Positions 1-39,295 of a stretch of 40,918 nt of DNA are shown here, in pieces. The stretch is from a virus. The translations under genes and the position numbers were made by a program. The stretch spans positions 1 through 40,918 of the IMG/VR virus record IMGVR_UViG_3300043496_000255; one strand, written 5' to 3'. A model generated the notes under the pieces. The model worked only from the letters and a program-made list of their open reading frames with translations. It was not told the origin of the DNA and ran no database searches. How positions within the stretch are numbered: the first letter of the stretch is position 1; the number at the start of each line of letters is the position of its first letter.

Positions 1-1836
1 TGCGCTGCTCGTGGGCACACTGGTGATGTGCAGCTCTTCGTAGCCGCCCTCGCCGCCGCCGCTGCCAATGTTGCCGTCCGCGGTGCCAGCGCCGCCGCCG
101 CCGCCGCCGCCGCCCTTGAACCGCACCTTGGCTCGCTTGGTGCGCGTGTCGTAGGTGTGCGTGCCCGAGCTGCTGGTGTACGTGGTGACCGCGAGGAGCC
201 GCCCTGGGCTGGGATCGCCGATGACGATGGCCCGATCGAAGGCGTTGCGAATCAACACCGAGTCCCCCGGTGTCAGCACCGCATCTGCGTTGTTAGGGCA
301 AAAGAAGCGGTCCGCGGCCACGACGCCGCCGGTGGAGTCGTTATGGTTCAGTGTGACATTGAAAGTGCTGGTCCTAGAATTGTAGAGCACCAGCTCTTGG
401 CCCTCAGCCAGATTCATGCTGCGCATGACGACGGCCGCCGTATTGAGGGTCCAGCGTGCCGACGTTGTAATAGCGGAGGGCGTCCAGACCGCGAATGTGC
501 CGCCCCCACTCACGTCCACCGCGAGCGAGTCGATGTCACTCGCGTCCGTGGCGAACCGAATCAGCTCCCCCACCTCGGCGCCGGTCAGGTCGACAGGGTC
601 CGCGGGCCCCGCGGCATCGATCTGCAGGCCCTTGACCGTGCCGGACGGCACGTTGGCGAGCTTGGCGTTGGTGACCGCGTCGTTGGCGATGGTGGTGGCG
701 TTGCTGTTGGCGGCTGCCGTGGCGTCGCCGGTCAATGCCGCGCGTTGGAACTCGATCTGACCGGCAACGCTGGTGGATACCGTGACGCTGGTGGAGCTGG
801 TCGTCACCCGCTCGGCGCTCATGTTGGCGCTCGCCGAGTAGGTCACGATGGGCTCGGCGCTGGTGGTGGCGTTGCTGTTCTGCGCTGCCTCGGTGAAGCC
901 GGTGAGCGCGGCGCGCTGGGCGGTAACCTCTAGCTCATCGTTCCCGGCGTCGTCGGTGACGACCGCGACGACCGAGGTAGTGCTGAGGAAGTTCAGGTTC
1001 GTTCGGTCGTTCTCTGCCGAGCCATTGTCTCGGATACCCGCGAAGAGAGTGGCGTTGCTGTTCTGGGTCGCGGCCACCGCGCCTGTCAGCGCGGCACGCT
1101 GGAACGTGTGGGTCGTCGCGTCGTAGATGATGCTGGTCGAGTCGACGTCCGCGAGCGGCACCGCGACGGGCGCCGCCGTGCCGGTCGTGATGTTGCCGAC
1201 GAAGGTGTCGGGGGCAATGGGGGTCAGCGCACCCACGGGGATGGTGGAGCCCGCCGCCGAGACGCCCGAGATGAAGCCGATGACGACCGCCTCGTCTTCC
1301 ACGAACGGCTCGGGGCCGCTCGACTCGATGACGGTGATGCCCAGGTCCCAGTAGGCGCCCTGGTCCGTCATGGTGTTGAGGTCCCAGCGGATGAAGCGCG
1401 CCGGGTTGATGGCGTCCACCAGCGTCACCACCCCGAGCGGGGTCGTTGGCCCGCCCGCCATCACGTCGAGCCAGGGCTGGACGTCCACCAGCCGCGCGTT
1501 GGTCTGAGACACGCGCATCACGGTGGCCGTGTTCTGGACGGCCTGGTTGAGGCGGATGCGCCCGACGGTGGGGTCGGCGGCGGCCACGCTGGTGGAGAAG
1601 TAGAACGCCAGTGGGTTGGCCGACGGCGCGTTGTCGGCGACCTGGAGGAAGCACTCGTTGATGGCGTCCCGGGTCGAGCGCACGGCGGGGCCGAGCTCCC
1701 GGTTGACGTAGTCGATCAGGTTCTCGATGGTGGCGCTGCCGCTGAAGGGGCGCACCGCGCGCGCCACTCCCGTGCGTTGCTGCTGATACGCAGCCTCGCG
1801 CTGGGCTTGGGTGAGCTGGCGGTCATTACACGCCAT
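1..1836 (-). CDS. Tail fibre / receptor-binding protein, 3' end cut by window
   Basis: An open frame of 612 codons starts at ATG 1836 and runs off base 1 without a stop. Three copies of a motif of the form ALTGxxxAxxNSNAT lie near residues 245, 304 and 363, so the repeat spacing is about 60 residues. This is typical of the shaft of phage tail fibres. Near residues 574-582 there is a run of eight glycines coded by a GCC-repeat tract; glycine-rich tips are common in fibre ends that touch the receptor. It is the last gene of the virion operon and its start overlaps the stop of the upstream gene by 11 bases. Being a fibre is inferred from repeats and position; receptor and trimer state are unknown. 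Confidence 0.75.
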   Translation of the reverse strand, partial: MACNDRQLTQAQREAAYQQQRTGVARAVRPFSGSATIENLIDYVNRELGPAVRSTRDAINECFLQVADNAPSANPLAFYFSTSVAAADPTVGRIRLNQAVQNTATVMRVSQTNARLVDVQPWLDVMAGGPTTPLGVVTLVDAINPARFIRWDLNTMTDQGAYWDLGITVIESSGPEPFVEDEAVVIGFISGVSAAGSTIPVGALTPIAPDTFVGNITTGTAAPVAVPLADVDSTSIIYDATTHTFQRAALTGAVAATQNSNATLFAGIRDNGSAENDRTNLNFLSTTSVVAVVTDDAGNDELEVTAQRAALTGFTEAAQNSNATTSAEPIVTYSASANMSAERVTTSSTSVTVSTSVAGQIEFQRAALTGDATAAANSNATTIANDAVTNAKLANVPSGTVKGLQIDAAGPADPVDLTGAEVGELIRFATDASDIDSLAVDVSGGGTFAVWTPSAITTSARWTLNTAAVVMRSMNLAEGQELVLYNSRTSTFNVTLNHNDSTGGVVAADRFFCPNNADAVLTPGDSVLIRNAFDRAIVIGDPSPGRLLAVTTYTSSSGTHTYDTRTKRAKVRFKGGGGGGGGAGTADGNIGSGGGEGGYEELHITSVPTSSA

Positions 1837-30175: not shown

Positions 30176-30466
30176 TCAGACCTTCTGAGCGTCGAATTGC
30201 TCGCCCTCGGGCATGTTGGCGCGCTTGAGCTCGTCCAAGGTGGCGTAGTGCAGCGCTGCCATCACGCCTTGGGTGTAGCCGAGCCAGCGATTGGCCTTGT
30301 CGGACTTGTTTTCTGCGAAAAACAGCGCCGCTTGCACGAGCATGTAGGCCAAATGCCAGGGGCTCGTCGGGGCGTCTTGGTCTCGCTTGGCGTCGAAGTC
30401 CCCGCTGCGGGCTTTGAGCAGGGCGAGGGTCTTCCCGCAGGCGGTTTCAAATTGTTCCAGGGTCAT
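30176..30466 (-). CDS. Small helical protein (96 aa), unknown
   Basis: ATG 30466 opens a 96-residue soluble helical protein (TLALLKARSG, WHLAYMLVQAALFFAE, RWLGYTQGVMAALHY) with a charged end. Longer upstream extension is rejected because it enters the repeat region. It stands alone between two gene-free stretches. It resembles conserved phage proteins of unknown role. Confidence 0.6.
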   Translation of the reverse strand: MTLEQFETACGKTLALLKARSGDFDAKRDQDAPTSPWHLAYMLVQAALFFAENKSDKANRWLGYTQGVMAALHYATLDELKRANMPEGEQFDAQKV

Positions 30467-30587
30467 GCCGCGCAGGTGTACTGCGGCAGGTGAGAGCCAA
30501 GCCAGAAAAGTGCTGTCTCTAGCGTGGGGTGGCGCGACCGCGTCCCCCGATCCAGCCCCGGGGGGGTACCCGCCCACATGCACGCGC

Positions 30588-30670
30588 AGGCTCGCGCGCA
30601 CACCCGCGCACTGCGCACGCGCGCACGCATCACACGCGCGCACTGCGCACGCGCATAGCGCGCACGCGCG
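30588..30670. repeat. Alternating purine-pyrimidine tract with 18-bp direct repeats
   Basis: Over about 80 bases G/A and C/T alternate almost without break (GCGCACGCGC-type). CGCGCACTGCGCACGCGC occurs twice, at 30605-30622 and 30637-30654, 32 bases apart, with part of a third copy near 30658-30670. Such sequence can adopt Z-DNA and lowers the energy for nucleosome-free or origin-like opening nearby. Function unknown. Confidence 0.6.
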
Positions 30671-30732
30671 ATCAGGAGAGCCTTCTGCGCAGTGTTCCGA
30701 AACGGCGAGCGATTTGCGCCCCCTGTGCGGCA

Positions 30733-30753
30733 AACGCTTGCGTGGCAAGCGTT
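30733..30753. promoter_or_regulatory. Perfect 9-bp inverted repeat (operator-like)
   Basis: AACGCTTGC and GCAAGCGTT flank the three bases GTG. It is too short-looped and lacks a T run, so an operator is more likely than a terminator. GTGACT follows twice, 12 bases apart (30755-30760 and 30767-30772). A dimeric winged-helix or HTH regulator from this phage may bind here. Confidence 0.5.
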
Positions 30754-30791
30754 CGTGACTAGGCTTGTGACTGGGGAGCCGATAGCGGCCC

Positions 30792-30813
30792 CCCTGACTC
30801 GACCCTGACTCGA
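30792..30813. repeat. 11-bp tandem repeat before first gene of right operon
   Basis: CCCTGACTCGA occurs twice in direct tandem (30792-30802, 30803-30813), followed by CCCCGA. The period is about one helical turn, as expected for stacked protein binding on one face of DNA. It lies 37 bases upstream of the ATG. Confidence 0.5.
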
Positions 30814-30850
30814 CCCCGATCCACCTCACAAGAGCCCACCAGGAGACAAC

Positions 30851-31123
30851 ATGACACTCGCATTCGCCTCGCTCGCCAACGCCACCTCGGCAGAACGCCC
30901 GGCCAACCAGTCTGACTACCTCGCCAACCTGGCGACGATCGAGAGCACCGAACCCAGTGACGAAGCCGTGACTCGCGCTGGTCGCCTGATTGACCGCACC
31001 CCCTACGTGTCGGTCGCATTCGCTGCGATGGCGGCCGCTCTGCAGGAGATTGACCCGGACGCTGCGCAGATTGCGCTGGACGCCGCTGCCCGCATCGCGG
31101 AGCTGGAAGCCGCAACCATCTAA
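30851..31123 (+). CDS. Small Ala-rich helical protein (90 aa)
   Basis: First gene of the rightward operon, with ACCAGGAGACAAC before the ATG, a variant of the repeated leader. The 90-residue product is mostly helical and Ala-rich (VAFAAMAAALQEID, DAAARIAELEAATI). No motif recognised. First intergenic cassette follows its stop. Confidence 0.6.
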   Translation: MTLAFASLANATSAERPANQSDYLANLATIESTEPSDEAVTRAGRLIDRTPYVSVAFAAMAAALQEIDPDAAQIALDAAARIAELEAATI

Positions 31124-31202
31124 CGCTCCGTTACTCGTCGCGACTGGCAACGGTCGCGACTAGTGGCGGGTCCGTTAACCCGAGAAGAAACCAGGAACAC
31201 CA
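31124..31202 (+). promoter_or_regulatory. Intergenic cassette 1: stem-loop A, stem-loop B, RBS
   Basis: Stem A: GTCGCGAC at 31137-31144 pairs with GTCGCGAC at 31153-31160 around loop TGGCAACG; ACT/AGT extends it with one mismatch. Stem B: GGGT 31168-31171 with ACCC 31178-31181. Then GAAGAAACCAGGAAC before ATG 31203. No T run follows, so it is not a typical terminator. Confidence 0.7.
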
Positions 31203-31388
31203 ATGACCGCTCGTATCATCGCCATCGCCATCGCCATCTTCGCGCTCGGAGCCCTCACGGGCATTACCGCCGCTGACGCCTACGGTGCGGAGCCCGCGCC
31301 CACCACGCCGCAACGGTGCCGCATTGTCTACATCAACGGAGACACCGTCATTTCGTGCCCGACCCTGGTTGTGCGAGGCGGCAAGTGA
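31203..31388 (+). CDS. Exported small protein with signal peptide (61 aa)
   Basis: Starts MTARIIAIAIAIFALGALTG, a clear signal peptide or N-terminal anchor with possible cleavage around ADAYGA (residue 27-30). The mature part of about 32 residues has two cysteines (RCRIVYINGDTVISC) that could form a disulfide in the periplasm. A small exported phage product of this kind may alter the cell envelope, for example in superinfection exclusion; this is speculation. Confidence 0.65.
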   Translation: MTARIIAIAIAIFALGALTGITAADAYGAEPAPTTPQRCRIVYINGDTVISCPTLVVRGGK

Positions 31389-31494
31389 GCCGCACGGACG
31401 GAAACCTCTAAGACCCGCCTACACCGCGCAGCACTGGCAACGGTACTGCGCGGTAAGGTGAGCCACAGCGGCCAACCAGAAGGAAACCAGGACC
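31389..31494 (+). promoter_or_regulatory. Intergenic cassette 2: stem-loop A, RBS
   Basis: Stem A: ACCGCGCAG 31423-31431 pairs with CTGCGCGGT 31446-31454, nine perfect pairs; after a C/A mismatch AC/GT closes the same loop TGGCAACG found in cassette 1. A clear second stem is missing or weak. GAAGGAAACCAGGACC precedes ATG 31495. Confidence 0.7.
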
Positions 31495-31773
31495 ATGACT
31501 AAGAAAGCATTCCGCGCATTCGCGATCGGCGACAAGGTCAAGCTGACCGGCAAGTTTTTGCGCTCGACTGGCCAGCATGCGGGCAAAGAAGGTCAATCCG
31601 TCTGGACAATCCTTGGCTTTAGCAATGGTGACCGGTGGGCCATTGTCGACCAGCCGACAGACACCAGCCACTACACCGCGGCAGAGCTGACAGAGGACCC
31701 ATCGCTTCGCTACCGGCGTATCGCTGTGGCCAATCTGTATATCTGCGGCCAACTGGACTCGCGCAACGCCTAA
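31495..31773 (+). CDS. Conserved-looking phage protein (92 aa), unknown
   Basis: 92 residues. An SH3-like beta pattern is visible: GDKVKLTGKFLRSTGQ, then SVWTILGFSNGDRWAIVDQP, and YTAAELTEDPSLRYRRIAVANL. Similar short beta-barrel proteins are common in phage early operons. No signal peptide or membrane segment. Function unknown. Confidence 0.65.
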   Translation: MTKKAFRAFAIGDKVKLTGKFLRSTGQHAGKEGQSVWTILGFSNGDRWAIVDQPTDTSHYTAAELTEDPSLRYRRIAVANLYICGQLDSRNA

Positions 31774-31850
31774 GCGCTCCGCTCAGCCTTGCCAGCTACG
31801 GCTAGCAAGGCTTGGCGGGCCCGCTTGGCTCGAGAAGGAAACCAGGAAAC
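31774..31850 (+). promoter_or_regulatory. Intergenic cassette 3: stem-loop A with TACG loop, RBS
   Basis: AGCCTTGC 31785-31792 pairs with GCAAGGCT 31805-31812; inside, AGC/GCT closes a TACG loop, a UNCG-type tetraloop. A CGGGCCCG palindrome follows at 31816-31823 in place of the second stem. CGAGAAGGAAACCAGGAAAC precedes GTG 31851. Confidence 0.7.
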
Positions 31851-31888
31851 GTGAACGAGAGAGACCTGCCACGAAACTACGGCAAGCC
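31839..31888 (+). repeat. 50-bp exact repeat, copy 1 (RBS and gene start)
   Basis: From AAACCAGGAAAC through GTG 31851 and the first 12 codons of the gene, identical to 33080-33129. It is broken at AAGCC, after which the genes diverge. Confidence 0.75.
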
Positions 31889-32276
31889 CAAGCCGGCTAT
31901 GCCCAAGTTTGAGCAAGCGTTGCGCGCCGCATTCGAGCGTACAGCTGGCGAAGCAAACGTTACGCTAGCGCTCCGCATCATTCGGGGCGAGATTGACCCG
32001 CGCAGTATCCCAGCCGCGGAACGCCTCGAGGCGCAATGCTACAACCCACCGGGCACGCATTACCTCACCATGGTCGCGCTAGACAGCCTGCTAGGTACCC
32101 ACGGGTGCGAGTATATCGGCGAGGCGGATATGCGCGACGGTCCGCCGGTGGAGTATCTCAATACGGGTGACACCTACGCCGCGACCCTGGTCTGGTATCG
32201 CGACCGTGTCAGGCCGTGGTCCGTCGAATCTTGGGGCGACGTAGCAGAACGCCTAGAGCGCAGAGGTGGCAAGTGA
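31851..32276 (+). CDS. Small protein (141 aa), shares first 13 residues with 33092 gene
   Basis: GTG start with GAAGGAAACCAGGAAAC. The protein begins MNERDLPRNYGKP, identical to that of the gene at 33092, then differs. Middle part: ALRIIRGEIDPRSIP, then LDSLLGTHGCEYIGEADM; end includes VWYRDRVRPWSVESWGD. Not a known family. Stop overlaps the next GTG. Confidence 0.65.
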   Translation: MNERDLPRNYGKPKPAMPKFEQALRAAFERTAGEANVTLALRIIRGEIDPRSIPAAERLEAQCYNPPGTHYLTMVALDSLLGTHGCEYIGEADMRDGPPVEYLNTGDTYAATLVWYRDRVRPWSVESWGDVAERLERRGGK

Positions 32277-32674
32277 GCCGCGCAATCGTTCCCGTCAATG
32301 GCTCCAACCGCGACTGGTCGAGGCACCGTTACGTCCTCTGGTTCGGCGCATGCGCGCCCACGCGGCTCATGATTTGGGCCGATGGTCTGGAGTCTGCAAT
32401 CGAGATTGCCGGCGAATGGTTGGCTGAGCATGCCCCGGGGCTCATTATCCGCAATGACGCTCCGCTACTGGCGGAACTGATGGGCGAAGCATGCGCGGAA
32501 CTAGGTGTCGACCCGTCGCAGCCGGGTGGTCCCGAATATGACGCGGCGTGGGAGCAAGCCACGGCCGATCTCACCTACACCGAAAGCGGTTACCTCACCT
32601 CGTACGAATGGGGTATCGACCTGGAGGACCCGACCCGAGCGCAAGTGCTCGAGCTACAGGCCGCTATCGCCTAA
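32273..32674 (+). CDS. Small protein (133 aa), unknown
   Basis: GTG start within a GTGA overlap; no cassette at this junction. Sequence has a strand WFGACAPTRLMIWADG and then a helix ESAIEIAGEWLAEHAPG followed by acidic segments, a layout common to conserved phage proteins of unknown role. Ends with a helix and AAIA. Confidence 0.65.
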   Translation: MSRAIVPVNGSNRDWSRHRYVLWFGACAPTRLMIWADGLESAIEIAGEWLAEHAPGLIIRNDAPLLAELMGEACAELGVDPSQPGGPEYDAAWEQATADLTYTESGYLTSYEWGIDLEDPTRAQVLELQAAIA

Positions 32675-32749
32675 TGTCCCGTTCGGGCCCTGTTGCATGC
32701 GTGCAACTAGGCCCGTGCGGCTACATCAGCCGGAAGGAAACCAGGAACA
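32675..32749 (+). promoter_or_regulatory. Intergenic cassette 5: nested stem-loop A, stem-loop B, RBS
   Basis: CGGGCC 32684-32689 pairs with GGCCCG 32710-32715; inner stem GTTGCA/TGCAAC closes a TGCG loop. Stem B: CGGCT 32718-32722 with AGCCG 32728-32732. GGAAGGAAACCAGGAACA precedes ATG 32750. Numbered 5 because the fourth junction has no cassette. Confidence 0.7.
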
Positions 32750-33019
32750 ATGTCAGACTCACACTGGGTTTATGGATCGGGCATGGTCGGCTGTCTGTAT
32801 GACGGCGGGCCCGGCTGCGCCAGCACGCAAGACGACGCTATCGAGGCGGCACTGTCGAGCTTTAGCGACCTGCCGGACCATGAGCTAGCAGAGGCGCGCG
32901 CCAACCTAGCCAACGATGGTATCCACTACTTCTCTCGCTTGCTGACTGAAGCCGTTGGCGCGGACTATGTCGAGATAACGCCGCAAGACGGCCCCTGCCC
33001 AGAAGACGACGATAGCTGA
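32750..33019 (+). CDS. Small acidic protein (89 aa)
   Basis: 89 residues, acidic, with two cysteines close to the N-terminus (GCLYDGGPGCAS), then a helix pair (DDAIEAALSSF, HELAEARANLAN) and an acidic C-terminus ending EDDDS. It resembles small conserved phage proteins of unknown function. Cassettes on both sides. Confidence 0.65.
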   Translation: MSDSHWVYGSGMVGCLYDGGPGCASTQDDAIEAALSSFSDLPDHELAEARANLANDGIHYFSRLLTEAVGADYVEITPQDGPCPEDDDS

Positions 33020-33091
33020 CCCGTCCGCTTGACCCCGCCAGCTACGGCTAGTGGGGTCCGGCGGGCATTCAGCCCGGGAAAACCAGGAAAC
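33020..33091 (+). promoter_or_regulatory. Intergenic cassette 6: stem-loop A with TACG loop, stem-loop B, RBS
   Basis: GACCCCGC 33031-33038 pairs with GTGGGGTC 33051-33058 (one G-T wobble); after a C/A mismatch AGC/GCT closes TACG. Stem B: CGGGC 33062-33066 with GCCCG 33072-33076. GAAAACCAGGAAAC precedes GTG 33092. The loop part CAGCTACGGCTAG is identical to that of cassette 3, while the stem differs. Confidence 0.7.
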
Positions 33092-33129
33092 GTGAACGAG
33101 AGAGACCTGCCACGAAACTACGGCAAGCC
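33080..33129 (+). repeat. 50-bp exact repeat, copy 2 (RBS and gene start)
   Basis: Identical to 31839-31888; see copy 1. The spacing between copies is 1241 bases, so recombination between them would delete two genes and fuse the rest in frame. Confidence 0.75.
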
Positions 33130-33490
33130 ACGGCCGCGCGTGTCTAAGACGTCCGAGCTATACGCGCGCGCATTGGCCACGTCCGAGCGCATGCGTGCGG
33201 CCGGCAAGTGCGCGAATCGCTACTGCGGCCGCGCCGAGGTAGTCATTACACGCTGTGCCGCACGACTCGGCGAAACTGTGCCCACGTTGTACGTGTCGAG
33301 TGACGGGCAGTGGCTCACTACGTGGATGGGGAACCGCATTGCTCGGCTGTATGTGACCGGCAAGGCGCGTGGATTCAATTGTGAGCTCACTTGCTACAGC
33401 GCAACAATCGAGGGCCGCAACTACCACGGCCGGGGTCTCGGTCCGAGTATGTATATCCGCATGCATGCTGGAAAGCTGGTGAGCAAGTGA
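33092..33490 (+). CDS. Small protein (132 aa), shares start with 31851 gene
   Basis: GTG start. The first 13 residues match the 31851 product. Residues 38-45 hold CANRYCGRAE, a possible zinc pair. The C-terminal half (RIARLYVTGKARGFNC, then SATIEGRNYHGRGLG) resembles a small beta-rich domain I have seen in other phage early proteins, of unknown function. Stop overlaps the next GTG. Confidence 0.65.
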   Translation: MNERDLPRNYGKPRPRVSKTSELYARALATSERMRAAGKCANRYCGRAEVVITRCAARLGETVPTLYVSSDGQWLTTWMGNRIARLYVTGKARGFNCELTCYSATIEGRNYHGRGLGPSMYIRMHAGKLVSK

Positions 33491-33639
33491 GCATCCTATC
33501 CCTACTCGTTCTGTGCGTGCTCGGTTTCTTTGCGCTGTGCCTTGCCGTGATGGTTCTGGGCGTGCTGCTCGAGCTACTGCCGGCCGCTATCGGCCTGCTC
33601 GTTTGCTGGTATCTCCTGCATTTCGTGGGGTGCCTGTGA
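33487..33639 (+). CDS. 50-residue membrane peptide
   Basis: GTG 33487 in a GTGA overlap. The product is almost entirely hydrophobic: two segments (LLVLCVLGFFALCLAVMVL and LLPAAIGLLVCWYLL) that may form two membrane helices. It could act as a holin or an inner-membrane inhibitor; there is no lysis partner nearby. Below usual size limits for annotation. Confidence 0.6.
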   Translation: MSILSLLVLCVLGFFALCLAVMVLGVLLELLPAAIGLLVCWYLLHFVGCL

Positions 33640-33956
33640 AGTATCAGCCCAAACGCAGCACGCAACGCTGGCTAGATGGTGCCCCGAAAGCCTTGCTGGC
33701 CGTGTACGACAACGGCGGACGCTCATTCGACCGCTACACCGCGCTATACGGTGCGCCGCTGTGGCAGCCCGAATGCCGCACCATGCTGCCTGCTCGGTTC
33801 ATGAGCGAGCACCCGCAACACCCGCAAGGGTTCGGCATATTCGGGGAGCACCCGGCGCACCTACGCAGCGCGCTTGGCCGCAAGGTGCGCTTTTGCGACC
33901 TGCCCCCGGACGTGCGGCGCTGCATTGAATCTGACTGCAGCGACGATGAAGGCTGA
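33636..33956 (+). CDS. Small protein (106 aa), unknown
   Basis: GTG start with GTGA overlap. The product has a basic N-terminus, aromatic middle (RYTALYGAPLWQPECRTML) and a C-terminal part with two cysteines. It reads like a small enzyme-free accessory protein. No family recognised. Confidence 0.6.
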   Translation: MKYQPKRSTQRWLDGAPKALLAVYDNGGRSFDRYTALYGAPLWQPECRTMLPARFMSEHPQHPQGFGIFGEHPAHLRSALGRKVRFCDLPPDVRRCIESDCSDDEG

Positions 33957-34030
33957 GCTCCCATCCGGCTCCGCAACTACGGTTGCGGCGCCGCGTGGGC
34001 AATCTAGCCCGGAACGAGAGAGAGAAACCA
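33957..34030 (+). promoter_or_regulatory. Intergenic cassette 7: stem-loop A with TACG loop, stem-loop B, RBS
   Basis: CCGCAAC 33971-33977 pairs with GTTGCGG 33982-33988 directly around TACG; outer GGC/GCC adds three pairs after a mismatch. Stem B: GGGC 33997-34000 with GCCC 34007-34010. GAGAGAGAAACCA precedes ATG 34031. Confidence 0.7.
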
Positions 34031-34402
34031 ATGTCTGACACTGCAACCGAGACCGAAACCGAGTATTCCGACGCGCACCGCGCGCTAGCTGCGCACCTCA
34101 AGGTCGACCCGAGCGAGCTAGAGCCGACCCGCTACGATGATTGTTGCTTTGAGTACGGCCGCGAAGAGTATCGCGTGCTGACCGAGAGTGAGCGCGAGAC
34201 GGCCGCTAGCGAAGCGCTGGACTCCTACATTGACGATTGCCTGGAGATTCCGCCCGCCATTGAGCCCTATTTTGACCGGGACAAGTGGAAGCGGGACGCG
34301 CTGCTGAGTGACGGGTACGGTCACACGCTGTCTAGCTACGACGGCGAGGAAAACGAAGAGCAGATCGATGGCGTCTGGTTCTTTATCTACAGGACTAACT
34401 AA
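34031..34402 (+). CDS. Acidic phage protein (123 aa), conserved C-terminal motif
   Basis: A 123-residue acidic protein. The end KRDALLSDGYGHTLSSYDG followed by FFIYRTN is a pattern found in many phage proteins of unknown function (GRGH...L..YDG...YR.N). The N-terminus is Thr/Glu-rich and probably flexible. Strong acidity has led others to suggest antirestriction roles for comparable proteins; this is untested here. Confidence 0.65.
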   Translation: MSDTATETETEYSDAHRALAAHLKVDPSELEPTRYDDCCFEYGREEYRVLTESERETAASEALDSYIDDCLEIPPAIEPYFDRDKWKRDALLSDGYGHTLSSYDGEENEEQIDGVWFFIYRTN

Positions 34403-34404
34403 CC

Positions 34405-34578
34405 ATGAAGGCCTTACTCGAAACGACCGACGATCGGTTCTGGCATGCGTGGCAGTGGGGCAACGCCTCGCACCGGTACTACGGGCTAGACCTGGACTCT
34501 GAACGCGCACTAGAGCGGCTCGCCCGCAAATGGTTCTATGCCACCATGCGCCGCCTCGAGCAGCGGGGTGCACGATGA
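34405..34578 (+). CDS. 57-residue Trp/Arg-rich protein
   Basis: ATG 34405, two bases after the previous stop, to TGA 34576-34578. The product starts with an acidic-aromatic stretch (RFWHAWQWGNASHRYYG), then a basic helix (ALERLARKWFYATMRRLEQ). The stop overlaps the next ATG (ATGA). Short and missed by length-limited callers. Function unknown. Confidence 0.55.
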   Translation: MKALLETTDDRFWHAWQWGNASHRYYGLDLDSERALERLARKWFYATMRRLEQRGAR

Positions 34579-34778
34579 AAGCCCTGTTTACCCTCGTTCT
34601 GCTCGGCATTCTGTACGTCATTGGCCTGGACGGCGTGTATCTCGCGCTCGACACGGCCGACGCTGCCCTAAAGGGCGCGTATCACCATGCCGTTGCCGAG
34701 AGCGCGGCACGCCGCTGCACCACCCGTACCCAATTACCGAAACGAACCACCCGGAAGGAGTCGCCCGATGGCTGCTGA
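34575..34778 (+). CDS. Small membrane-anchored protein (67 aa)
   Basis: One hydrophobic segment near the N-terminus (ALFTLVLLGILYVIG) with the order of a signal anchor, then a soluble helix and a basic tail. It is coupled on both sides. May be exported or anchored with the tail outside. Function unknown. Confidence 0.6.
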   Translation: MKALFTLVLLGILYVIGLDGVYLALDTADAALKGAYHHAVAESAARRCTTRTQLPKRTTRKESPDGC

Positions 34779-35148
34779 ACTGAACTACTCGCTCGTAAAC
34801 ACGGACGGCGGCCAAGAGCTGGCCGCCGGTATCCAAGGCCTCGATGCTGCCCGCAAGGCAGCGGCGCGGCATGCCGCCAATATCGGGCAGGACGTGGAGA
34901 TCGTCGCCCCCAACGGCCGCACCGTCGAGCGCGTCGGGGCGGGGACCCCGACGTCTCACCAAATCGAAACCCTATACCGCAAGGCAGCGGCCACGGGTGA
35001 CGCCGAGACCTGCATGCTTTGCGATGTGGCGAGCGGAGTAGAGCTAGACTGGGCGATCGAGAGCTTCCTCCCTGTCACGAAGCAGGAGGCTTGCGCCAGA
35101 ATCCTCGCCATCATCCGCGACGCAGGAGGACACACCGATGGCCGCTAA
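34768..35148 (+). CDS. Small protein (126 aa), unknown
   Basis: ATG 34768 has the strong site GGAAGGAG. The first half (ARKAAARHAANIGQDVEIVAP) resembles a small alpha/beta phage protein, the second half is helical with two cysteines (CMLCDVASG). Overlaps neighbours by 11 bases on each side. No family recognised. Confidence 0.65.
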   Translation: MAAELNYSLVNTDGGQELAAGIQGLDAARKAAARHAANIGQDVEIVAPNGRTVERVGAGTPTSHQIETLYRKAAATGDAETCMLCDVASGVELDWAIESFLPVTKQEACARILAIIRDAGGHTDGR

Positions 35149-35413
35149 ACGCCGGCTCGCCTCGCCCTACGTCAAGCCGCGCGCCAGTGACTCACAGAAG
35201 GCCGCGCTCGATGCCGTGCGGGAACTGACCCGCCAGCACAGCCGGTCGCCTACAGCTACCGAGGTGGGCGAGCGTTTGGGCATGACCCGCCAGGGCGCGG
35301 CCCAGCTGCTCCACCTGCTGGAACGTAAGGGCTTACTGAGGGACATACCGAAGATGATTTCGAGCGGCCAATGGGAGCTCACTGAGGCGGGCGTCGGTCA
35401 GTTGCCGAAGTGA
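35138..35413 (+). CDS. LexA-like winged-helix DNA-binding protein (91 aa)
   Basis: Residues 18-70 form a winged helix of LexA type: KAALDAVRELTRQH, SPTATEVGERLGMTRQGAAQ (recognition helix) and LLHLLERKGLLRD. No protease domain. It closes the rightward operon and may repress it. Its 3' end overlaps that of a convergent gene by 16 bases. The fold assignment is good; the target is not known. Confidence 0.75.
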   Translation: MAAKRRLASPYVKPRASDSQKAALDAVRELTRQHSRSPTATEVGERLGMTRQGAAQLLHLLERKGLLRDIPKMISSGQWELTEAGVGQLPK

Positions 35414-35634
35414 CGCAGCTTGCGCAGCCAAGCAGGGGGCGGGCTGTCGAGCACTGGCGCGATGCACTCTTTGGAGTCGTGCATCATGATGAAGTACAGC
35501 CCGCCCGCTGCCCCTATGATGGGGCACCAGTGCCCGCAGTGCGAGCACCAGCGCTCTGCCTCCGAATGCCACCCCGGGCCGCTCAGGCTGCCCGGCTCGA
35601 TGCGCCAGCCGCGCTCTTCGCCGTGCTTAGGCAT
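35398..35634 (-). CDS. Small Cys/His protein (78 aa)
   Basis: ATG 35634 (8 bases inside the upstream gene). A CSHCGHWC cluster near residue 31 suggests a zinc site, followed by a short hydrophobic part (GGLYFIMM) and a helical end. Last gene of the leftward operon. Not recognised. Confidence 0.6.
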   Translation of the reverse strand: MPKHGEERGWRIEPGSLSGPGWHSEAERWCSHCGHWCPIIGAAGGLYFIMMHDSKECIAPVLDSPPPAWLRKLRHFGN

Positions 35635-35827
35635 TGAAGGCCTCGCTCCGCTCGATGCGAACGTGGCAGTCGGGACACTCGAAGTGGCTCGTCCTGTCAC
35701 GGTGACCATCGTAGATCGACCAGAGCCGAGAGAAGTGCGTTTCGTCCTCGGGGAAATACTTTCGGTGCGCCTCGGGTATCGGCTCGCCCTGTAGGTCTGC
35801 CCCACAGTGGGGGCAGACCGTAATCAT
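35627..35827 (-). CDS. Zinc-ribbon protein (66 aa)
   Basis: ATG 35827 opens MITVCPHCG; a second pair CPDC occurs near residue 51, so two CxxC pairs would hold one zinc ion as in zinc ribbons. Between them lies an acidic, aromatic linker. Part of the helicase operon. Possible nucleic-acid contact; function not known. Confidence 0.65.
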   Translation of the reverse strand: MITVCPHCGADLQGEPIPEAHRKYFPEDETHFSRLWSIYDGHRDRTSHFECPDCHVRIERSEAFNA

Positions 35828-35835
35828 TTTGGGGG

Positions 35836-36036
35836 TCACTTCTTCCGCTTGGCTGGTGGCTGCGTCGGGATGGGTGGCGGCGTCACGCGCCAGACGAGCA
35901 CGAGCCACGCCGTGCCGTCGGGCTCGGCGTAGGTGTGGAGGAAGACGGGGTAACCGTCGCACTCCGGCGGGGACTCGAGCTCGGCCGTTGCCGTGCGGTC
36001 CAGATAGAGTGTCTGGACCTGGAACCGGACGCTCAC
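35836..36036 (-). CDS. Small beta-rich protein (66 aa)
   Basis: Starts at GTG 36036, overlapping the helicase stop (GTGA). The product looks like a small beta barrel (VRFQVQTLYLDRTAT, then GTAWLVLVWRV) and ends with a Pro/Lys-rich tail. Function unknown; coupling suggests a link to the helicase. Confidence 0.6.
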   Translation of the reverse strand: MSVRFQVQTLYLDRTATAELESPPECDGYPVFLHTYAEPDGTAWLVLVWRVTPPPIPTQPPAKRKK

Positions 36037-38754: not shown

Positions 38755-39015
38755 TCACCCCACGGGGTCGCGCTTGGCTTTGGCCGTCGGCAAGAGCACA
38801 CGCATGCGCATGGTGATGGGCTTCTCCTTGAGCCAGCCCTTCTCGACCAGGCGCTTGAGCAGCCGCTGGGCGGCGTACAAGTACACCCCAAGATAGACGG
38901 CGAGCTGTCGATGCGTGGGCGGCACGCCATGCTCGTCGAGGTGCCGCTTGTAGGCCTCGTAGGTCTCCTTTTCGCGGGTGGTCAGCTCTCGGTTGGCGTT
39001 CTTGGGAGCAGGCAT
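38755..39015 (-). CDS. LexA-like winged-helix regulator (86 aa)
   Basis: 86 residues from ATG 39015. KETYEAYKRHLDEHG, PPTHRQLAVYLGVYLYAAQR and LLKRLVEKGWL form a LexA-type DNA-binding fold similar to the protein at 35138. It is the first gene of the leftward operon, facing the int operon over a divergent region with an inverted repeat in its own putative promoter, as expected for an autoregulated repressor or antirepressor. No protease domain. Which of the two winged-helix proteins is the immunity repressor cannot be told. Confidence 0.7.
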   Translation of the reverse strand: MPAPKNANRELTTREKETYEAYKRHLDEHGVPPTHRQLAVYLGVYLYAAQRLLKRLVEKGWLKEKPITMRMRVLLPTAKAKRDPVG

Positions 39016-39295
39016 ATGGAAAAGGTTAGACCAGAGTCTAGGCTTGTACAATACTCGTGGTCTCCGACCAACCGTAGTCCTCGACCACCGACCACCCCTG
39101 TTGTCAGCCCCATACCTACATCTACAGAAAACACAAGGGGCATGTTGCTTCAGTAGTGACACTTTGGTTTCACATCGGCACACTGAGTCCTCTTCGACCC
39201 CGGGTGAGTCACTAGCGACCCGCCCCTGTGTCCAGCCAAAGGACGGGCTCCCCCATGACAGTCAGTGCGCCAATGAGCGAGCGGCGAGGTATTGC
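39016..39295. promoter_or_regulatory. Divergent control region between regulator and xis/int
   Basis: 280 gene-free bases. Minus promoter: TTGTAC (39051-39046), 17 bases, TAACCT (39028-39023). Plus -10: TACAAT (39047-39052) with a poor -35. TAGAC and GTCTA (39027-39040, 4 bases between) overlap both promoters. GACCA occurs four times from 39029 to 39094. The rest up to GTG 39296 shows nothing clear. Promoter matches are by eye. Confidence 0.45.

Follow-up and report, generated by a model that had tools for sequence, protein, structure and literature searches.

The DNA analysed here (the window) is a 40,918-base IMG/VR record with matches to a terminase large subunit, a portal protein and a helicase. 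Its plus strand carries an operon of small accessory genes at 30851-34402, most of them without a confident family match, and a BLAST search with positions 30500-36000 found no similar DNA in INPHARED. Every non-overlapping junction of this operon contains an intergenic cassette, and the remaining junctions are start/stop overlaps. Directly upstream of the operon, at 30580-30670, lie alternating GC-rich repeats (GCGCACGCGC...), with similar ones in two related contigs, L003 and L028. In two other relatives, short GTTCAGTG / CAGTG repeats, possibly regulator sites, are numerous ahead of the operon on the minus strand (L014:5340-5140 and L022:6600-6440).

The protein encoded at 38755-39183 has a LexA-type DNA-binding domain that scores above the Pfam cut-off, and L003 encodes a phage integrase domain and an exonuclease-RecT protein. 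Together, the LexA-type domain and the integrase suggest temperate phages. A terminase-profile search of GTDB genomes retrieved one contig (L066, 70% identity), from a Polyangiaceae (Myxococcota) MAG, and a helicase search of the same genomes gave no match. Because the MAG contig also carries four cassette hairpins (369-1709, minus strand), the host of the clade is probably a myxobacterium, with a binning error of the MAG being possible.

Anatomy of the six cassettes

A preliminary description of this DNA had reported six junction cassettes, and we found all six with their hairpins, each on the plus strand. Cassette 1 (31121-31202) runs from the stop codon TAA (31121-31123) to the next start codon, ATG at 31203; its long hairpin (31121-31177, symmetric part 31127-31170) is capped by a GCAA tetraloop and followed by the ribosome-binding site (RBS) AAACCAGGA. 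The same tetraloop caps the hairpin of cassette 2 (31409-31494; hairpin about 31416-31460, symmetric part 31423-31454), which contains a C.A mismatch and is followed by an RBS and the start codon ATG at 31495; the spacer is longer here, as the upstream gene (31203-31388) stops further 5'. Cassette 3 (31771-31850) spans the stop codon TAA (31771-31773), a hairpin with a TACG loop and a C.A mismatch (about 31776-31820, symmetric part 31778-31819), a second stem-loop, B (about 31816-31832), and an RBS before the start codon GTG at 31851. The hairpin of cassette 4 (32672-32749) has a TGCG loop (about 32675-32726, symmetric part 32679-32720) and lies between the stop codon TAA (32672-32674) and an RBS with the start codon ATG at 32750. 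Cassette 5 (33017-33091) has a TACG-capped hairpin that includes the stop codon TGA at 33017-33019 (33016-33075, symmetric part 33023-33066) and an alternative stem-loop B, GGGC-ATTCA-GCCC, followed by an RBS and the start codon GTG at 33092. Cassette 6 (33954-34030), also with a TACG loop (hairpin about 33951-34008, symmetric part 33960-33999), joins the stop codon TGA (33954-33956) to the start codon ATG at 34031 through a diverged RBS, GAGAGAGAGAAACCA. Cassettes 3 and 5 have in common a 57-bp repeat (31839-31895 and 33080-33136; GTGAACGAGAGAGACCTGCC...) that spans the RBS and first codons of otherwise different genes, a possible internal duplication.

Folding against dinucleotide shuffles bears out the structure of all six copies (z = -2.3 to -4.6), with 0-4 of 200 shuffles per copy folding equally well. 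The parts into which the cassettes had been divided need redrawing. What was described as a stem-loop A of 26-32 nt is in each cassette one longer interrupted hairpin, and the CTCCGCT-like stretch listed as a separate part is the 5' strand of the lower stem of A, paired with GGCGGG. The helix runs on into the stop codon, as TAACG/CGTTA in copy 1 and GCTGA/TCAGC in copy 5. Stem-loop B is present but is not an independent element, its 5' arm being the 3' strand of the lower stem of A. Its consensus is about RGGC-AYTCA-GCCY, and the bases of its loop are the pairing partners of the stop-codon region; because of this shared arm and loop pairing, the base of A and stem-loop B are mutually exclusive folds. 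Two loop groups had been proposed, and the UNCG-type group stands (TACG in three copies, TGCG in one), but the supposed 12-nt loop ACTGGCAACGGT of the other two copies is a GCAA tetraloop on four base pairs (ACTG-GCAA-CGGT). Rereading GCAA as GNRA places six of six loops in two classical stable RNA tetraloop classes. The RBS thought common to all copies is AAACCAGGA in five of six, the exception being copy 6. A T run is absent, as had been noted, and the cassettes are indeed not simple terminators.

All elements, here and in the related phages described below, lie in a co-directional operon in the order stop codon, hairpin, next Shine-Dalgarno (SD) sequence. In their common architecture, a basal stem takes in the stop codon and often also the sense codon before it. 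Above this stem come a lower stem of 4-6 bp, a mismatch conserved at 13 positions from the loop and an upper helix of about 12 positions, often with a C.A or Y.Y mismatch; where the loop has four bases, it is UNCG or GNRA about half of the time. Of 66 folds, 55 pair two or more bases of the stop codon with the 3' side, TGA lying opposite TCA and TAA opposite TTA. This pairing is specific to each element: stop codons score -7.75 with their own partners vs -6.84 (sd 0.23) with partners swapped between elements, and 0 of 2,000 permutations were as good. Stem-loop B folds at -7.2 kcal/mol vs -3.0 when shuffled, and the SD window is slightly more open with the native hairpins than with shuffled ones (0.564 vs 0.535, p = 0.009), a small gain. 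The preliminary description had overlooked the stop-codon pairing, the competition between A and B, and the independence of cassettes from genes. We also considered a ribosome bypass like that of T4 gene 60, where a stop codon lies in a tetraloop hairpin, and rejected it because the last codons vary and ordinary RBSs and start codons follow.

Distribution, covariation and strand

The expectation that related phages would carry homologous cassettes is borne out by 17 further phage contigs. A strand-neutral hairpin scan with ORF context, followed by hand selection, brought the count of homologous elements to 66, spread over 18 phage contigs whose TerL are 63-91% identical; the Polyangiaceae MAG contig adds four. 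Terminase scans gave 58 loci, and only contigs that extend far enough upstream of the terminase were informative about cassettes. In this group of uncultured phages, most spacers between accessory genes hold a hairpin of the same shape around the preceding stop codon; the stop-to-loop distance (mostly 22-28 nt) and the spacer length (mostly 70-86 nt) are kept while the stems change. Seven counterparts occur in L003, whose helicase is 91% identical; their stems have changed yet remain paired, and their RBS, GAGAGAGA, differs from the window's. The hairpins are absent from L026, where the region is covered; the operon is absent beside the helicase of the relative L004; and L006 is a single-gene match at 37%. 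In IMG/VR, a literal hairpin pattern matched only the contig of L003, and a second conserved cassette pattern matched four contigs, all within this clade. Within the collections searched, the cassette is seen only in this terminase clade. Rfam gave no match at the gathering score for the whole window and none at E up to 1 for 30800-34100. Divergent subtypes occur on the minus strands of L036 (TAACGACC...GGCCGATAG) and L059 (TTCG-capped GC-rich hairpins), and a 258-nt junction with several inverted repeats at L014:2941-2684 (minus strand) perhaps represents stacked or decayed cassettes.

Over 35 hand-delimited junctions the mean folding z was -3.6, with 30 below -2. Since MAFFT gapped the loops, pairs were counted in a loop-anchored gapless alignment; pooled pairing reached 85.8% vs 45.3% for shuffled elements and at most 41% with slid partners, values that are inflated, as is the pooled covariation, because the elements were chosen by pairing. 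Less circular are the double changes with pairs kept between related cassettes, drawn from 14 comparisons, some of them matched by position or within one phage. Copies 3 and 5 of the window differ by four double-changed kept pairs with none lost, in agreement with the initial observation that stems differ yet stay paired, and copy 5 differs from its L003 counterpart by four double changes, one single change and one lost pair. A covariance-model search, suggested earlier as a check, recovered held-out phages of the clade: the model (R1), trained on the coding strand of 17 sequences from five phages, matched 11 held-out contigs, every hit in the 650 kb falling on a cassette junction or on its antisense shadow. 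Cassette copies and phages are non-independent samples throughout. Homologues, compensatory change, strand-specific tetraloops and the covariance model support the original proposal of selection on RNA structure.

The acting strand was judged from several features. UNCG and GNRA are RNA-stabilising loops, and among four-base loops from 13 phages they account for 26 of 47 read on the coding strand and 0 of 47 on the antisense strand, the strand having been set from the genes and not from the loops. In the upper stem, G.U pairs were no commoner than A.C overall (39 vs 38); outside the mismatch positions the counts were 32 vs 11, a post hoc split. By minimum free energy the antisense strand folds slightly better over a stretch that includes the RBS tail. 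Summed, these observations favour an RNA of the coding strand, short of proof.

Modularity and candidate roles

BLAST comparisons between operons yielded identity islands that are the cassettes themselves, several of which begin no more than about 3 nt from the stop codon and stop short of the RBS. In 47 of the 55 pairs of similar cassettes from different phages, neither flanking gene has a homologous counterpart; conversely, a similar cassette accompanies just 5 of 50 pairs of homologous downstream genes and 4 of 48 pairs of homologous upstream genes. Cassettes and genes thus assort almost independently, though perhaps somewhat less so than these counts imply, as homologues that are short and diverged can escape BLASTP. 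Within a phage, the 20 nt that precede the start codon resemble one another from junction to junction (13 permutation sd), a likeness that the hairpin arms do not show (1 sd). The RBS thus undergoes concerted evolution, while in the hairpin it is shape and not sequence that is conserved. One large operon gene, which may resemble DUF932, is 74% identical at the nucleotide level between L011:5449-4503 and L014:4390-3444 (minus strand), with different neighbours.

The RNA element itself is well supported, and we infer its precise role. We incline, with some reserve, to the view that the cassettes form a family of hairpins acting in cis at mRNA junctions, where they insulate cistrons or take part in their processing and double as module joints. 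What is shown is the structure and evolution described above; the functional steps that follow are proposals. Transcription presumably runs across the junctions, and the junction hairpin would insulate neighbouring cistrons on the polycistronic mRNA. On free mRNA the entire spacer would be folded; a ribosome terminating at the stop codon would open the base, allowing stem-loop B to form beside the purine-rich RBS. The capped helix may mark the cistron boundary, either as a barrier to 3' exonucleases, for which the galE intercistronic hairpin that blocks 3'-5' exonuclease is a precedent (PMC9239205), or as a processing site for an endonuclease such as RNase III. Because the unit spans stop codon to RBS and would work with any flanking genes, it could serve as a joint for swapping gene modules. 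More tentatively, we suggest a gene-independent RNA joint in which the terminating ribosome opens the stop-codon hairpin, which then refolds beside the next RBS, giving a clade-wide swap connector whose shape is kept and whose sequence is free.

RNase III-type processing is the most specific version of the preferred explanation: the imperfect helix of about two turns would be cut to give monocistronic mRNAs, and the downstream piece would refold into stem-loop B as a 5' stabiliser. It fits the long interrupted helix at nearly every spaced junction, the fixed mismatch position, the absence of a U-tract and the overlap of stem-loop B with the 3' arm. GC-rich helices with several mismatches could, however, be poor substrates, and T7 RNase III sites are not known to include the stop codon, which counts against a reading that we hold to be rather doubtful. 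Strong GC-rich hairpins directly after stop codons would also suit intrinsic terminators of partial strength, or attenuators, by which expression would be graded from gene to gene in the operon, but the T run is missing, no terminator-like sites were found on the plus strand, and there were fewer than chance on both strands. Nor were sigma-70-like promoter sites found in 30400-34600, by a consensus that may not be the host's; without promoter-like sites inside the operon, serial termination would silence the distal genes. Terminators are accordingly unlikely, with a very slight chance of being correct.

The palindrome could instead act as DNA, single-stranded or as a cruciform, in recombination joints whose short homology at gene borders would allow modules to be exchanged. 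Such joints explain the mosaicism, with islands of nucleotide identity falling on cassettes and with the independent assortment of cassettes and genes; the absent wobble bias and the equally good folding of the antisense strand also speak for them. They leave unexplained why UNCG and GNRA loops appear only in the coding-strand reading; the hairpin, moreover, always lies upstream of an RBS in coding orientation, and stop-codon pairing is not expected of such joints. Stems also differ between copies of one genome, which makes them poor homology for recombination, and we judge this reading improbable. We find it quite improbable, too, that the hairpins are anti-polarity spacers, whose folding would hide C-rich untranslated RNA from Rho so that transcription survives the ribosome-free gap. 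Rho requires ribosome-free C-rich RNA (PMC9239205); when the spacer is folded by itself at minimum energy, about 59% of its bases are paired, and its RBS end is rich in A and G. Against this, C still makes up 32% of the bases left unpaired, a length of about 77 nt is close to the minimum for Rho, and the stop-codon pairing goes unexplained.

Should the preferred RNA role hold, the cassettes would provide a testable model of cistron separation on polycistronic phage mRNAs and of gene swapping without breaking operon expression, and module borders could be defined by RNA shape and not by common sequence. With its shape kept, its sequence free and its independence of neighbouring genes, the cassette looks like a natural modular insulator-plus-RBS part.

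Comparison with known systems

Several phage and bacterial operons contain intercistronic hairpins. The RNase III sites between T7 early genes are imperfect hairpins in a phage operon; the likeness is one of shape only, cleavage here being putative, and the present elements add clade-wide covariation, tetraloop caps and stop-codon pairing. The intercistronic CUUCGG hairpins of T4 are stable and tetraloop-capped, mostly with one loop type and no shared architecture, whereas here UNCG and GNRA caps sit on one architecture with alternative folding. Like our elements, the E-hairpin at the Escherichia coli galE-galT junction is intercistronic and follows a stop codon, but it is a single instance, about 100 nt after that codon (PMC9239205), and not a family with stop-codon pairing. 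In a comparison with integron attC sites, which have conserved R and L boxes and go with an integron integrase, reading the aligned elements revealed no shared core box; a search for an integrase, covering a few proteins, turned up the phage integrase domain of L003.

The closest parallels are repeats of mycobacteriophages and cassettes of T4-type phages. In cluster K mycobacteriophages, the start-associated sequence (SAS) is a 13-bp repeat, GGGATAGGAGCCC, located 3-7 bp before the start codon; SAS and ESAS precede non-structural genes of different families with larger spacers, about half have an inverted repeat ahead of the SD-like one, and the 17-bp inverted repeats of ESAS have an arm consensus per subcluster (PMC3203893). 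The preliminary description rightly set the cassettes apart from these: the SAS repeat is absent from all listed RBS stretches, the inverted repeat changes with pairing kept, and arms are no more alike within than between phages. In contrast to SAS and ESAS, the cassettes have freely covarying arms, an RBS that varies from phage to phage and a hairpin anchored at the stop codon. The PeSLs of T4-type phages, promoter-terminator cassettes reportedly described by Arbiol in 2010 and Comeau in 2014, are likewise repeated intergenic stem-loop cassettes at the borders of swapped genes, proposed for modular shuffling, and the cassettes here also lie at borders of exchanged genes. Unlike PeSLs, which combine an early promoter with a terminator stem-loop, they show no promoter-like (sigma-70-like) or T-run signal, and their hairpin takes in the stop codon and has an RBS behind it. 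The element resembles PeSLs and ESAS but lacks defining features of each; we place it with phage intergenic stem-loop cassettes, where it is best read as a new family of mRNA junction hairpins.
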